Source: Nostoc sp. TH1S01
GTDB taxonomy: Bacteria > Cyanobacteriota > Cyanobacteriia > Cyanobacteriales > Nostocaceae
DNA length: 64,000 nucleotides
Direction of reading: 5' to 3'
Assembly: GCA_018993265.1 (NCBI GenBank)
Contig: JAGKSW010000018.1
Location: forward strand, 124,001-188,000
Each line of letters starts with the position of its first letter. Within the stretch, counting starts at the first letter, position 1. The translations under genes and the position numbers were made by a program. Shown in pieces: positions 48,801-54,745 of the stretch. The notes under the pieces were generated by a model. It was not told where the DNA came from. It saw only the letters and a list, made by a program, of their open reading frames with translations, and ran no database searches.

Positions 48801-49940
48801 ATGACAAAAACTCTCAGTAGTCGCGGATTAAGTTCGACAGAGGCTTTGTCTCCTGACTTAATCTCTACTCAGCGTCACAGTGATCAAGTAAAAGTGAATA
48901 AACATACCAGTTTGGCAACTGCAAAGTTAGAGACGCATTTACCAACTGGTGGGTTAGAAATTGTCCATGCAACCCACGGTCGCATTCGTATCCGCGCTAC
49001 TGACGGCAGTTTAAACGCAAACTTAGAATTAGTATCCCAACATTTAGAACAGTTTAAAGGAGTCACTGAAGTTACGACCAACGAGCAATTGGGCAGTTTG
49101 GTCGTTAATTTTGACGAAAATTATTTGACATTACCTCAGATGTTGGGAATACTAGAAAAACTGAATATTAACCCTTCTCCAACTTCGCCTCAATCAATGA
49201 GCAGCAAAGATCCCTTTGCAGTGTGGAAATCTCCAGATTTTTGGATGGAGCAAACCATCTCCTTTATTCCTCTGATGACTGGTTTAGCAGTCACAGGAGG
49301 TCTAGGAATTAGTGGATTTGCATCGATCCCAGTCTATATGATTACCGCAGATGCCACACGTCGGGTAATTGACTATCTAGAACCGCAAATTGCTAAGTCA
49401 GACAGCAATAGCCAATCTGCAAAACCAAATAACACAAGCAAACAACCGAAATTGACACAAGCAGTCACTAAAGCTGTTGTTGAACAAGTTAGGCAAGACG
49501 TAAAATCGTCAGCAAATATTGCCTATACTGTAGTTCATAATATTCCTGGCAGGATTAGGTTTCATGTACCACGCATTGCTCAGGATCAAGCCTATGCCAG
49601 AAGACTGGAAAGGTTATTAAAAACAGACACTCATGTAACTAACGTGCGGATGAATTGTGATGCAGCATCAATTGCGATCGCATATCATCCTGGTCAAGTT
49701 GCAGTTAACCATTGGGTCAAACTGATGGAATTGGCGGTGCAAACAAATCCACATACACCTAGCGTCCAAATTGCAGAGCCACAACAGCCTGTAGAACAAA
49801 TTACTCAGCCTGTTGTAGCGGCTGATACAACAAAAACATCAGCAGAAAGTAACAATCTAAACATATCTAGTATATGGGCTGACATGAAGCCCGCAGCTAT
49901 GTCTTTTTCTTTAGCCTATATGGCGAACTTTCCGTTGTAG
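48801..49940 (+). CDS. Protein with two cysteine-motif-free HMA-like modules flanking a TM segment
   Basis: GGLEIVHATHGRIRIRATDGSL... and NIAYTVVHNIPGRIRFHVPRIAQDQAYARRLERLLKTDTHVTNVRMNCDAASIAIAY; TM around TISFIPLMTGLAVTGGLGISGFASIPVYM. Confidence 0.8.
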   Translation: MTKTLSSRGLSSTEALSPDLISTQRHSDQVKVNKHTSLATAKLETHLPTGGLEIVHATHGRIRIRATDGSLNANLELVSQHLEQFKGVTEVTTNEQLGSLVVNFDENYLTLPQMLGILEKLNINPSPTSPQSMSSKDPFAVWKSPDFWMEQTISFIPLMTGLAVTGGLGISGFASIPVYMITADATRRVIDYLEPQIAKSDSNSQSAKPNNTSKQPKLTQAVTKAVVEQVRQDVKSSANIAYTVVHNIPGRIRFHVPRIAQDQAYARRLERLLKTDTHVTNVRMNCDAASIAIAYHPGQVAVNHWVKLMELAVQTNPHTPSVQIAEPQQPVEQITQPVVAADTTKTSAESNNLNISSIWADMKPAAMSFSLAYMANFPL

Positions 49941-49966
49941 ATCGTTCCGTCAAGGAACACAGGAGG

Positions 49967-50767
49967 ATGAAAATGGAGGGTTCTGTATCCTCATCGGCAT
50001 CGCAGCCTCCTGGGCCTAGCCCCTGGAAAATAGCAGCCAAACCAAACCACATCGCCCACAAGCAATCTGTCACAGTAGCGTATAGTATTACTCTGGCACT
50101 TCCCGGCAAAGTCGCATTTTGTGTACCAAAAATTAATGATGATCCCCAATACTTGCAACGCCTCCAAGCGTTGATCAAAGAGCAACAATGGGTGATTAAT
50201 CAGCAAGTTAATCGAGAAGCGGGATCAGTCGTCATTACCTACAAAACCGGGATGATGTCTGACTTTGAAATGCGCTCAAATCTAGCTAGTCTATTGCAGA
50301 CTGCTGAAACAGTTCAAGTAGAGGAGCAAGGGAGCAGAGGAGCAGAGGAGCAAGGGTGCAGGGGTGCAGAGGAAGAAAAAAATACTCAGCACTCAGCACT
50401 CACAACTCAGCACTCAGCACTCACAACTCAGCACTCAGCACTCACAACTCAGCACTCAAAAGTAGCCTATAGTATCGTTCACGCCATTCCTGGACGAATT
50501 AGGTTTCATATACCGCAAATAGCTTGCGATCGTCAATATGTGCAACGCTTAGAGAACTTGCTCAAAGCAGATCCAGTAGTGACAAGTGAGCGCATCAATA
50601 AAGATGCAGCCTCAGTTGTGATCACTTATCAAACTGGAAAACTGCGAGACTCTCAAGAGCGAATACACAGCGTTGAAGAAGCAGCAAAAACATATTTAAT
50701 TTGTTTGATTCAATCTGCCAACGAAGCAACGGCAGGTATCGCCGCCAACCCAACCAGCAGAATTTAA
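49967..50767 (+). CDS. Protein with two HMA-like modules joined by a heptad-repeat-encoded linker
   Basis: VAYSITLALPGKVAFCVPKINDDPQYLQRLQALI... and KVAYSIVHAIPGRIRFHIPQIACDRQYVQRLENLLKADPVVTSERINKDAASVVITYQTGK; SD AGGAGG just upstream, ATG at 49973 possible. Confidence 0.8.
   Translation: MKMEGSVSSSASQPPGPSPWKIAAKPNHIAHKQSVTVAYSITLALPGKVAFCVPKINDDPQYLQRLQALIKEQQWVINQQVNREAGSVVITYKTGMMSDFEMRSNLASLLQTAETVQVEEQGSRGAEEQGCRGAEEEKNTQHSALTTQHSALTTQHSALTTQHSKVAYSIVHAIPGRIRFHIPQIACDRQYVQRLENLLKADPVVTSERINKDAASVVITYQTGKLRDSQERIHSVEEAAKTYLICLIQSANEATAGIAANPTSRI
50320..50458 (+). repeat. In-frame heptanucleotide repeat: (GGAGCAG-like)n then (CTCAGCA CTCAGCA CTCACAA)n; encodes EEQGSRGAEEQGCRGAEEEKN(TQHSALT)n
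   Basis: Read directly; 21-nt period = 7 aa. Confidence 0.95.
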
Positions 50768-50960
50768 CAATATATCAGCAAATTTTTATTGCAGTAGCTC
50801 ACCAGTCTTCAGTGATTGGAGAGAAAAATTCACTCTCAAACATAAATACCAACTTGGTTGGAGTGGTCGATTAATTTAGACTTCAATCTAAAATCCAAAA
50901 TTGGTATGAGAGCCTACTGCGTTATGAGTCAAATTTTTCATCACTTTAGCGAGATCAGGA

Positions 50961-53306
50961 ATGACACCATTGACAGCACAACTAGTATCGCCCGCAGTTC
51001 AAAAATCTTCGGAAACTGAAGTTAAAGAAGAGGTACCTTTGGGTGCGAAGGCTTATGAAACCGTCAATACAGTGGTTTTAGCCCAATCAAGTTACAAGAC
51101 TAATGGCAAAGCTTCTCTAGCTAACTTAAATGGACGCTCTCATCAGCCAGTATCCAAAGTTGTCTATAGCGTTGTCCATGCAGTTCCCGGAAGAATGCGG
51201 TTGCGTATCCCACAGTTGCGTAATAACACCGCATATATGCAACGCTTACAAACTTTGTTAGAAGTTGATCCCCTCGTTACCAGCGTCAGAATTAAACCTG
51301 CGGCGGCCTCGTTAGTTGTTACTTATAAAACTAGTCAAGTCAGCGATGCCAAAATGCGATCGCGTCTGAGTTGTCTGATAATGACAGCTAATGATGCCAA
51401 CGTTGTGCTGTTGGATCAGAAAAAACCCATTAATGCAAAGCCAAACGAGGATGCTGAAGAAGGCGCTTGGCCTGGCTTGCAACTTTCGGTAGTAGCCACC
51501 GGTTTAGCAGTGTTAGGTGGGCCTTTGGGGTTATCTGTACCACCAGTTATGGTGGCTGGAACAATTGCTCTAGCAACATTACCCGTATTTCAACGAGCTA
51601 TAGTCGGGGTGGTGATGCACCGGAAACTGACAATTGATGTGTTGGATTTCTTGGCAATTGTGATTACCACAGTTCAAGGTCAGTTTCTCACTCCAGCATT
51701 GATGCTGAGTTTAATTGAAATTGGCGAAAATATCCGCGATCGCACTGCCCGTTCTTCTAAAATGCAGACATTAGACTTGCTCAATTCTCTAGGGCAATTT
51801 GTCTGGGTAGAACGTGATGGTGAAAAGGTGCAAATCTCCATCAAAGAAGTCAAGAGTGGTGACACTGTAATTGTCTATCCAGGTGAACAAGTCCCGGTGG
51901 ATGGCAGTATTCTGCGGGGTAAAGCCTTACTAGATGAGCAGAAACTCACTGGCGAATCAGTACCAGTCTTGAAGAGCAAAGGACAACATGTTTTCGCTTC
52001 TACACTGGTACGAGAAGGCAGTATCTATATCTTGGCCGAACGCATAGGTAACGATACCCGCGCCGGACAAAGCATCAAGCTTATGGAAGAAGCCCCCGTC
52101 CATGACACCCGGATGGAAAACTACGCCATCAAGATTGCCGAAAAAGCAGTGCTACCCACCTTACTGCTAGGCGCAGGAGTATTCGCAATTACCCGCAACG
52201 CCGCCAGAGCCGCCAGCGTCCTCACCCTAGATTTTGCCACAGGGATCAGAGTATCTGTGCCGACAACAGTCTTGGCAGCTTTGACTTATGCCGCCCGCCA
52301 CGGTATTCTCATCCGTAGTGGTCGCGCTTTAGAACAACTGGCAGAAGTTGATACCATCGTTTTTGATAAGACTGGTACTTTAACTAAGGGCGAAGTTGCA
52401 GTTATTGGCGTTGATAGTTTCAATCCTGAAGTTGACAGCGATAGAGTTTTGGCTATCGCCGCCGCCGCCGAGCAACGGTTAACACATCCAGTTGCGGAGG
52501 CTGTCATCCGCTATGCCGAAGCTCAACAAATCGTCATTCCTAGCCGCAGTAAGTGGAATTATAAACTAGGTTTAGGTGTAGAAGCTGAAATTGATGGCGC
52601 AGCTATTTATGTAGGTAGCGAACGCTTCTTGCGTCAACAAGGCGTAAACATGGAAGCTCTCAACGATAGCAACCGAGTAAATTCTGTAATTTATGTCGCC
52701 AGTAATGGGCAACTTCTCGGTAGAATAAGATATAGTGATATTCTGCGAGAAGAAACACGAGAAGTAATTAACCACCTGTTGAGCGTCGAAGGTGTAGAAG
52801 TTCACATGCTCACCGGCGACAACCAACGCACAGCCAAAGCTGTAGCGGCAGAACTCGGAATTGCCCCAGCCAATACCCACGCAGAAGCATTCCCCGAACA
52901 AAAAGCCGCCGTTGTCCGTGAACTGCACGAACAAGGCAAGACAGTGGCCTTTGTGGGAGATGGAATTAACGACTCCCCAGCTTTAGCTTATGCCGATGTT
53001 TCTATATCCTTTGCTCACGGTTCAGAAATTGCGCGTGAGACAGCAGATGTAGTGCTGATGGAAAATGACTTACATGGAATTTTAGAGGCGATCGCCCTAG
53101 CACGCAACGCCAAAAAACTAATTCGCCAAAACACCAGTATTGTTGCTATTCCTAATATTGCAGCAATGGCGATCGCTGTGCTATTTGGACTTAACCCCCT
53201 AGGTGCAACAGTAGTTAACAATGGTTCAACAATCGTTGCAGGCGTTAACGGCTTGCGTCCAATTCTTAAAAATTCCCCAAAGAAAGCTCTACCATCAGCA
53301 AGATGA
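50961..53306 (+). CDS. P1B-like (heavy-metal-type) P-type ATPase with N-terminal HMA-like module but no CPC/SPC/CPS motif
   Basis: TGESVPV, FDKTGTLTKGE, RLTHPVAEA (HP), MLTGDNQRTA, FVGDGINDSPALAYADV; TM6 region reads LTLDFATGIRVSVPTTVLAAL. Confidence 0.92.
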   Translation: MTPLTAQLVSPAVQKSSETEVKEEVPLGAKAYETVNTVVLAQSSYKTNGKASLANLNGRSHQPVSKVVYSVVHAVPGRMRLRIPQLRNNTAYMQRLQTLLEVDPLVTSVRIKPAAASLVVTYKTSQVSDAKMRSRLSCLIMTANDANVVLLDQKKPINAKPNEDAEEGAWPGLQLSVVATGLAVLGGPLGLSVPPVMVAGTIALATLPVFQRAIVGVVMHRKLTIDVLDFLAIVITTVQGQFLTPALMLSLIEIGENIRDRTARSSKMQTLDLLNSLGQFVWVERDGEKVQISIKEVKSGDTVIVYPGEQVPVDGSILRGKALLDEQKLTGESVPVLKSKGQHVFASTLVREGSIYILAERIGNDTRAGQSIKLMEEAPVHDTRMENYAIKIAEKAVLPTLLLGAGVFAITRNAARAASVLTLDFATGIRVSVPTTVLAALTYAARHGILIRSGRALEQLAEVDTIVFDKTGTLTKGEVAVIGVDSFNPEVDSDRVLAIAAAAEQRLTHPVAEAVIRYAEAQQIVIPSRSKWNYKLGLGVEAEIDGAAIYVGSERFLRQQGVNMEALNDSNRVNSVIYVASNGQLLGRIRYSDILREETREVINHLLSVEGVEVHMLTGDNQRTAKAVAAELGIAPANTHAEAFPEQKAAVVRELHEQGKTVAFVGDGINDSPALAYADVSISFAHGSEIARETADVVLMENDLHGILEAIALARNAKKLIRQNTSIVAIPNIAAMAIAVLFGLNPLGATVVNNGSTIVAGVNGLRPILKNSPKKALPSAR

Positions 53307-53371
53307 GATAAGACCTTGGGTAGAGTAAGCTAAAAAGCTTTCTAACAATCTTTCAATCTAACTGGAGATAC

Positions 53372-53683
53372 TTGACTATGCCGAAAATTACTGATTTTGT
53401 TGAAGATGCTGGCGCTCCTGGAATTATAGCTGGTATCGGTGCCGTTTTACTTGCACCCGTCCTAATTCCTGTTGTGGCAGGAATTGGTAAACCCATTGCT
53501 AAATCCATCATCAAAGGCGGAATTGTCGCTTACGAAAAAAGCAAAGGCGCATTTGCAGAACTAGGTGAAACCTGGGAAGACATCGTAGCTGAAGCTAAGG
53601 CCGAACTCGCAGAAGACAGAGAACCCCCATTATTTGAAGCAGCGGCTACTCCGGTTGACAGCGCATCTGATAATGGTGCATGA
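53372..53683 (+). CDS. DUF5132-type small glycine-rich membrane protein
   Basis: VEDAGAPGIIAGIGAVLLAPVLIPVVAGIGKPIAKSIIKGGIVAYEKSKGAFAELGETWEDIVAEAKAEL. Confidence 0.8.
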   Translation: MTMPKITDFVEDAGAPGIIAGIGAVLLAPVLIPVVAGIGKPIAKSIIKGGIVAYEKSKGAFAELGETWEDIVAEAKAELAEDREPPLFEAAATPVDSASDNGA

Positions 53684-53767
53684 GTTAGGCTGTGTTTTGG
53701 AAAGAATGAAAGATCAAGTTTCATGCTCAATAATTCAAACTTTCCGACAACTTAAAAATAAATGAGG

Positions 53768-53795
53768 AGATGGGTGAAATACCCATCTTTCTCAA
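53768..53795 (+). terminator. Rho-independent terminator
   Basis: AGATGGGT gaaat ACCCATCT TTCTC. Confidence 0.7.
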
Positions 53796-54083
53796 TTCTG
53801 TGGGTAAAGTCACACTCGCATAAACAATCAAGGGTTTTGTCTGTGTGCAAGATGAACCGCAACTTTACTCGCTTGGTGCAAGACGTGAATGGATACAGTA
53901 TTTTTCATCTGGATGAGGTACATTTTTCTAGTCTCTAGCCCCTAGCCTCTCTCCCCTTGAAAGTGTACTGCAAAAAACTGAGAAAGGCTGTAAAACAAGG
54001 CTTTTACTCAGCACTTCGCTACAGCAGACTGGTAAGTGAACCAAACTCAAAAGCATTCAAAGTTATTACTCAGGAGGGTGGAT

Positions 54084-54683
54084 GTGTTTACAAATAATCA
54101 TGGTAACGTCACTATGATGCCTAACGTTGTGGAGGCAGCCGCCTTGAACACCCCATCCAAGCCTATCTCTACAAAAATTATTAGTGATACCCCAGGCAGA
54201 CTACGCTTAAGAATTGCCCCGTCTCATCGCCACACTGGGGAAATGAAACGCATTGTCAAGATGTTGAATGCTCAACCCAACATCAGTCAGGTAAATACTA
54301 ATATCCAAAATGGCAGTATCGTGATTTATCACGATCGCAACGATGAAAGCTGGCAAAATCTAGTATCTACACTCAAAGACATTGGCATAATTTTCGCCGA
54401 CGTAACTACCGGAAGTGAAAGCCACTCCGAAGCAGCCGCTACAGTTGCTAATGCTGTTTTTGACTTAAACGACAGAGTAGAACAAGCCACAAAAGGCGTA
54501 GTTGATTTACGCTTTATCTTTCCTTTAGCACTGGGATGTTTATCGGTGAGACAGTTGCTAATTAAAGGTTTGCAACTAGAAATTATTCCTTGGTATGTCT
54601 TGGCATGGTATGCCTTTGATAGTTTTATAAAACTGCATGGAGTCAAAAAACCAGAACCCATTAGTGCGTCTGAGAAACAGTAA
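54084..54683 (+). CDS. Protein with N-terminal HMA-like module and C-terminal hydrophobic segment
   Basis: SD CAGGAGGGTG before GTG at 54084; ISTKIISDTPGRLRLRIAPSHRHTGEMKRIVKMLNAQPNISQVNTNIQNGSIVIYHD. Confidence 0.75.
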   Translation: MFTNNHGNVTMMPNVVEAAALNTPSKPISTKIISDTPGRLRLRIAPSHRHTGEMKRIVKMLNAQPNISQVNTNIQNGSIVIYHDRNDESWQNLVSTLKDIGIIFADVTTGSESHSEAAATVANAVFDLNDRVEQATKGVVDLRFIFPLALGCLSVRQLLIKGLQLEIIPWYVLAWYAFDSFIKLHGVKKPEPISASEKQ

Positions 54684-54719: not shown

Positions 54720-54745
54720 AAACCCGCGCAGGCGGGTTTAGTTTG
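54720..54745 (+). terminator. Terminator AAACCCGC gcag GCGGGTTT AGTTTGT
   Basis: Hairpin read directly after the HMA-like gene. Confidence 0.8.

Follow-up and report, generated by a model that had tools for sequence, protein, structure and literature searches.

A Nostoc gene cluster of HMA_2 proteins, a P1B-lineage ATPase and a DUF5132 protein as a possible relative of mycobacterial pump platforms and ferrosome systems

How does a P-type ATPase come to be encoded among proteins built of HMA-like modules that have no CxxC metal motif, and what would such a pump move? The question is raised by a window of 64,000 nucleotides from Nostoc sp. TH1S01 (contig JAGKSW010000018.1, positions 124,001 to 188,000; the window is this whole stretch), in which a Pfam search of the encoded proteins places five + strand genes at 48801-54683, downstream of a peptide deformylase gene. 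We see an evenly balanced case for the complete reading, that of a membrane-bound cation-pump platform, PacL/ferrosome-like, which handles a hard cation and uses its HMA_2 domains as docking modules. On this reading the cluster would be a cyanobacterial relative of P1B6-ATPase (fez-like) systems and of the mycobacterial PacL/Ctp platforms. The genes are the following (TM, transmembrane):

48801-49940, + strand: protein 1, 379 amino acids; HMA_2, predicted TM hairpin, HMA_2 and C-terminal helix; Pfam HMA_2 in two stretches, 1.2e-17
49967-50767, + strand: protein 2, 266 amino acids; two HMA_2 modules; Pfam HMA_2 in two stretches, 3e-14
50961-53306, + strand: P1B-type ATPase, 781 amino acids, P1B6 lineage; N-terminal HMA_2, Pfam 1.5e-9
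53372-53683 (ATG at 53378), + strand: DUF5132 protein, 103 amino acids; Pfam DUF5132 6.9e-18
54036-54683, + strand: protein 5, 215 amino acids; HMA_2 followed by a TM hairpin; Pfam 10-150 of 154 positions, 3.4e-12

An earlier note on this DNA had described six modules in four open reading frames around a P1B-like ATPase and a DUF5132-type protein, all on one strand, and the Pfam matches bear this out. The start it gave for protein 5, 54084, is an internal GTG, and the first ATG is at 54114.

Are the five genes a unit, or neighbours with no joint function? In a set of 80 related loci, Nostocales conserve the gene order protein 1, (protein 2), ATPase, DUF5132, protein 5, and more distant cyanobacteria retain HMA_2 protein, ATPase and DUF5132, or part of this. 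These loci had been picked via the ATPase, and for that reason a second test was begun from the families DUF5132 and HMA_2, in 194 cyanobacterial genomes drawn from the phylum. DUF5132 is present in 32 of them and HMA_2 in 33 (the extra genome rests on a match below the cut-off), and all 32 genomes with DUF5132 have HMA_2. An HMA_2 gene lies within 5 kb of 31 of the 42 DUF5132 genes, against 0.34 expected. As the window's own family is patchy, with genomes that have and genomes that do not have both, shared descent alone is an unlikely cause of this co-occurrence. Pairwise ratios of nonsynonymous to synonymous substitution (dN/dS) indicate purifying selection on all five genes: about 0.2 for protein 1, about 0.1 for the ATPase, 0.21-0.35 in most pairs for protein 2 (0.73 against the truncated copy in locus L101), and 0.05-0.08 for DUF5132, the lowest of the cluster in every pair. 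That protein 2 is missing or truncated in many relatives would fit genes without a joint function, but the 32 of 32 genomes, the adjacency, the gene fusions described below and the purifying selection contradict that explanation, which we hold to be very improbable. The cluster is a real unit; co-occurrence, conserved order and adjacency substantiate the single membrane-associated unit proposed in the earlier note, which had suggested this neighbourhood survey. The deformylase, HtrA-like protease, DnaA and DnaN genes that flank the cluster are common to Nostocales loci and found in none of the distant ones, and we therefore treat them as background synteny.

What are the HMA_2 modules? All four proteins match HMA_2 (PF19991) at 38-65 bits, against a gathering cut-off of 30, and six modules in four genes are far above chance. 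Five of them were placed as follows:

48945-49166, + strand: HMA_2 module 1 of protein 1 (HATHGRIRIRAT), from alignment and predicted structure
49515-49745, + strand: HMA_2 module 2 of protein 1 (VVHNIPGRIRFHVP), with one isolated Cys, from alignment and model
50069-50302, + strand: degenerate HMA_2 module, first of protein 2 (LALPGKVAFCVP), from alignment
50453-50671, + strand: HMA_2 module 2 of protein 2 (IVHAIPGRIRFHIP), from alignment
51153-51389, + strand: HMA_2 module of the ATPase (VVHAVPGRMRLRIP), with H73, R78, R80 and R82 invariant in 32 ATPases

The modules had been called cysteine-free, with conserved basic positions. CxxC is indeed absent from all six, but three carry a single isolated Cys (MNCDAAS, FCVP, IACDR); likewise, the basic positions hold in the ATPases, but the first module of protein 2 has lost the His and most of the Arg of the signature. 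In the structure model of protein 1, which is reliable inside the modules only (pLDDT about 80-90; overall pTM 0.28), both modules run strand-strand-helix-strand-strand-helix (E-E-H-E-E-H), the HMA order with one additional N-terminal strand. For module 1 these are strands 52-58 and 61-66, helix 69-83, strands 88-94 and 99-104, and helix 111-120; model helices 145-167 and 172-198 make up the TM hairpin between the modules. Foldseek, queried with the whole of protein 1, returned mainly HMA domains (RAN1, MerP, ATP7B, Atx1, PacS; probability near 1, E 0.02-0.3), and the archaeal RNA polymerase subunit L, which has a similar shape, was also among the top matches. As modelled, then, the protein 1 modules have an HMA-type fold with an extra N-terminal strand, basic residues and no CxxC, in agreement with the fold suggested earlier. 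We take PF19991 to be the CoBaHMA domain of the calcyanin N-terminus, the definition of which would presumably cover the HMA-like fold, the extra strand and the conserved His/Arg in place of cysteines; different here are the multi-module membrane proteins tied to DUF5132. It is very likely that these modules are not soft-metal carriers.

What, then, does the pump transport? The ATPase matches the NCBIfam model TIGR01525, 'heavy metal translocating P-type ATPase', at 514.6 bits (cut-off 346; 3.8e-154), and the solved structures nearest to its model are CopA (4bbj) and ZntA (4umw). The motifs TGES, DKTGT, HP and GDGxND are all intact, and judging from them an ATP-driven P-type cycle is almost certain. 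In two trees the window ATPase falls within a cyanobacterial clade that is sister to a Deinococcus plasmid protein (100/100). The cyanobacterial and Deinococcus group joins the ATPases that adjoin DUF6110 genes or lie in fez-like clusters (an 18-row clade, 97/92, with some long branches), and in the same trees the window ATPase stands apart from CPC, SPC and DUF1490-linked pumps. DUF6110 genes typically accompany P1B6 ATPases, which are marked by an HN motif in TM6 (PMC9374683). The P1B6-type relatives have D-x-(S/A)-C-x-x-K in TM4 and HN in TM6, and the window ATPase has instead:

52230-52250, + strand: TM4 site D424-F-A-T427-G-I-R430, which replaces D-x-(S/A)-C-x-x-K
53217-53222, + strand: TM6 N753-N754, which replaces HN

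Between the two lies the catalytic phosphorylation motif:

52365-52379, + strand: DKTGT (D469), from the sequence motif

D424, T427, R430 and N754 are invariant in 32 cyanobacterial ATPases. Because other cyanobacterial members and a paralogue in the same genome (locus L041, 55% identical) have T/R in TM4 yet still HN in TM6, the simplest reading would be that the TM4 Cys was lost first and the TM6 His later. By its motifs the window ATPase is a sister variant of the P1B6-type group and not a member, since it has neither the TM4 Cys nor the TM6 HN. The membrane site has had its Cys and His replaced and is left with only Asp, Thr and Asn, and this is why we favour a hard divalent cation as the substrate; the oxygen and amide ligands would suit such a cation better than Cu+, Zn2+ or Cd2+. 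Even so, this assignment is an even bet and the least certain part of the reading. Could the pump be a soft-metal exporter of the common Zn/Cd/Cu type whose metal-binding domains have degenerated? The TIGR01525 match and the closeness to CopA and ZntA would be expected of one, but TM4 has no CPx, SPC or SCP, CxxC is found in none of the modules, the replacement residues are invariant in those 32 sequences, and the genome already has separate CPC and SPC pumps; we think a soft-metal exporter improbable.

What is the function of the DUF5132 protein? Its alignment shows a Gly/Ala-rich membrane segment followed by a charged E/A-rich helix, with G23, A28 and P29 invariant in the former, A62, E63, E66, D70, A73, E74 and E78 in the latter, and Lys residues K40, K44 and K48 between the two. 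Small proteins adjoining related ATPases have this layout too, and on plasmids the relatives of the window ATPase adjoin DUF1490, DUF6110, YtxH-named or HMA2 proteins. Against the profile of the partner protein in fez-like clusters (a label given to these plasmid clusters from ATPase motif and gene content alone), DUF5132 scores 32.9 (P=9e-5), where 60 column shuffles reach at most 18.6; against a Deinococcus partner protein P is 1.2e-4. Among 60 neighbour proteins from nine plasmid loci, DUF5132 itself ranks first for the DUF5132 profile and ranks 2-7 are all small ATPase-partner proteins, and the fez-like partner profile itself matches DUF6110 (2e-5) and a Priestia protein (3e-8). By profile comparison, the similarity of DUF5132 to the small membrane partners of P1B6-lineage ATPases (fez-like, Deinococcus) is weak but significant, and that to PacL (DUF1490) is weaker still. 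The window protein is not matched by PF07371 (DUF1490/PacL), DUF5132 being its sole Pfam match. A Gly-rich fez-like protein was tried as a relative of DUF5132 and rejected (P=0.22), and the idea that DUF5132 is a calcyanin-type glycine-zipper protein was set aside, its conserved part being the Lys-rich and charged helix region. The same genome has a second DUF5132 gene, solitary, with no HMA_2 or ATPase nearby (L138:3755-4048, contig C62).

Platforms of mycobacteria are among the closest known systems. In Mycobacterium tuberculosis, DUF1490 proteins form PacL/Ctp efflux platforms with CtpC, CtpG and CtpV (PMC9374683, PMC13043812). There, too, a P1B ATPase gene lies beside one for a small protein with a TM segment and a charged E/A helix, and some DUF5132 proteins share a DHDH-type tail: 9 of 78 end in an HxH tail, several in THDHDHG, and the metal-binding motif of PacL1 is DLHDHDH (PMC9374683). 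The tail may be inherited or convergent. Proteins ending in THDHDHG are encoded at L090:13255-13554, L095:13326-13628 and other Calothrix-type loci. In contrast with PacL, DUF5132 is a separate Pfam family, the window pump has neither CPC nor HN, and the window cluster has several extra HMA_2 proteins. By this analogy it is rather probable that DUF5132 acts as a PacL-like scaffold or stabiliser. DUF6110/P1B6-ATPase pairs have been named as possible platforms as well (PMC9374683); their ATPases group with that of the window (97/92) and also have a small TM protein beside the pump. A search for DUF6110 in the 194 cyanobacterial genomes gave no match, but its controls gave none either, and absence is not proven.

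Might the cluster instead be a ferrosome-like system, with a membrane-bound compartment for iron or another metal that is built or filled by the P1B6-lineage pump together with its partner proteins? FezB, the P1B6 ATPase of ferrosomes, is a putative ferrous iron transporter, and Rhodopseudomonas has six fez genes (PMC10979944, PMC12016538). Some of the nearest relatives of the window pump are P1B6-like ATPases whose genes belong to clusters of five to six that also encode HMA_2, small TM, Pro-rich and Gly-rich proteins. Such clusters occur in Cereibacter (beside FeoA), Vibrio and Arcobacter (there together with a DUF2202/rubrerythrin-like protein), and DUF5132 resembles their small TM protein. 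Against this, the TM4 Cys is gone and, in the window pump, the TM6 His too, so that the SCP-like TM4 and the HN of FezB are both absent; the cluster has no iron gene and lacks the Pro-rich/Gly-rich fez-like set; and the plasmid clusters are putative fez systems. Ferrosomes are linked to anaerobic iron starvation; the host here is an aerobic phototroph. We regard a ferrosome-like compartment as unlikely and export from the cytosol, rather than the filling of a compartment, as likely. The fez-like plasmid clusters (Cereibacter L133:2614-6623, Arcobacter L132:2007-6483, Vibrio L150:1259-5028, Azospirillum L149:398-4588) carry HMA_2, small TM and in some cases Pro-rich or Gly-rich proteins by the P1B6-type ATPase, and that of Cereibacter adjoins FeoA.

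The two families also occur together beyond this cluster. An N-terminal HMA_2-like domain, in some cases below the Pfam cut-off, is present on P2A-type (PMR1/SERCA-like) ATPases whose PEGLP and NLVTD motifs are intact, and DUF5132, alone or fused to a protein-5-type TM hairpin, stands directly before these ATPases in the same genome (L137) and in L139-L141. Fusions of HMA_2 to PAP2 phosphatases with complete active-site motifs (K-x6-RP, PSGH, SR-x5-H-x3-D) occur as well, both in the same genome and in roughly a dozen loci of Nostoc; in these Nostoc loci the fusion gene follows the cluster at a distance of about 7 kb and has a gene for another HMA_2 protein next to it.

L137:1979-5702, L140:2562-6135, L141:3127-6575 and L139:3408-6982: P2A ATPase loci with HMA_2-like domain
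L144:3533-4510 (same genome), L070:13219-14343 and L124:18252-19274: HMA_2-PAP2 fusions

Are the modules, then, lipid sensors in a cluster that manages phospholipid charge, with a pump regulated by, or acting on, phospholipid and not metal? The PAP2 fusions and the invariant Arg in TM4 would suit such a role; the fusions also give indirect support to the binding of anionic lipid or phosphate conjectured in the earlier note. Against this, lipid binding by the modules is itself conjectural, cations are what P1B ATPases pump, and the same modules sit on P2A ATPases with intact Ca2+ motifs; the idea strikes us as doubtful. A still wider proposal seems to us a long shot of similar kind: HMA_2 would be a general domain for docking to membrane lipid, the altered-site ATPase would have switched to a hard cation or even to a substrate linked to lipid, and the DUF5132-scaffolded platform would, in the same cell, organise the Ca2+-type ATPases and PAP2 lipid phosphatases as well. 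HMA_2 modules accompany membrane proteins rather than soft-metal proteins, for which reason we prefer docking over metal binding, whether it is a partner protein or anionic lipid that they dock to; anionic lipid as the specific ligand is less likely than not. A Gloeothece verrucosa plasmid encodes HMA_2 with a P-type-ATPase-like remainder that has neither actuator domain nor DKTGT (L135:9795-11363); with an active pump and DUF5132 nearby, it looks like a pseudo-ATPase.

How would a hard-cation pump platform of this kind work? The pump would run an ATP-driven P-type cycle and export from the cytosol a hard divalent cation, be it Mn2+, Ca2+ or Mg2+. DUF5132 may self-associate in the membrane through its Gly/Ala-rich segment, and its charged helix would hold and stabilise the pump, as PacL1 does for CtpC. 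Through the Arg/His face of the HMA_2 modules, pump and partners would dock onto one another or onto the anionic surface of the membrane. Several points weigh against this reading. The substrate is assigned from sequence motifs only, and a literature search, with most subscription journals outside reach, found no experiment on any member of the cluster (nor a paper naming CoBaHMA, DUF5132 or PF19991). The likeness of DUF5132 to DUF1490 is weak (P=0.003), the comparison with one DUF6110 sequence is not significant (P=0.17), and DUF5132 and DUF6110 are linked via the fez-like group only. DUF5132 lies downstream of the ATPase in the window, whereas PacL and DUF6110 lie upstream, and the window protein has no metal-binding tail. 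The Fisher test of the DUF5132/HMA_2 co-occurrence (p = 8e-36) ignores kinship.

Some features of the locus stand apart from these questions. The loci closest to it are from Nostoc spongiaeforme and a Nostoc sp. (ATPase identity 92-95%). In 27-29 of the 80 loci, though not in the window, the dihydroxyacetone kinase genes Dak1 and Dak2 follow downstream on the same strand (L063:15166-17255, L075:22286-23257). A promoter scan of the region was uninformative (14 sites against 13.3 expected), and terminator-like sites number 10 against 7.3 expected by chance. The linker arrays of protein 2 resemble repeats that are typically intergenic in Nostoc.

50320-50458, + strand: tandem repeats encoding the inter-module linker of protein 2 (24-bp unit, 50320-50373; 21-bp unit, 50384-50458)
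54720-54739, + strand: terminator-like stem loop, on weak evidence, 37 bp 3' of protein 5

The predicted TM hairpins of proteins 1 and 5 (the latter had been called TM-anchored), the repeat-coded linker, the P1B6 kinship of the ATPase and its changed TM4/TM6 site go beyond the earlier note, as do the kinship of DUF5132 with partner proteins of P-type ATPases and the second association, with Ca2+-type ATPases.

What does this mean for these families? The cluster seems to be akin to the pump platforms of tuberculosis bacteria and to ferrosome systems, a kinship that has gone unrecognised, and its pump probably moves a different ion. DUF5132 and HMA_2, both of unknown function, are thereby tied to a class of system now understood in mycobacteria, and a testable rule follows, that in cyanobacteria the two occur together. 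The P1B-lineage pumps form a natural series, C/H to T/H to T/N, along which the transition-metal site is taken apart step by step; with it, a switch of substrate in P-type ATPases could be tested directly. The comparisons with plasmid-borne DUF1490, DUF6110 and fez-like proteins suggest that mycobacterial effluxosomes and ferrosome-type systems may have a common partner-protein family.

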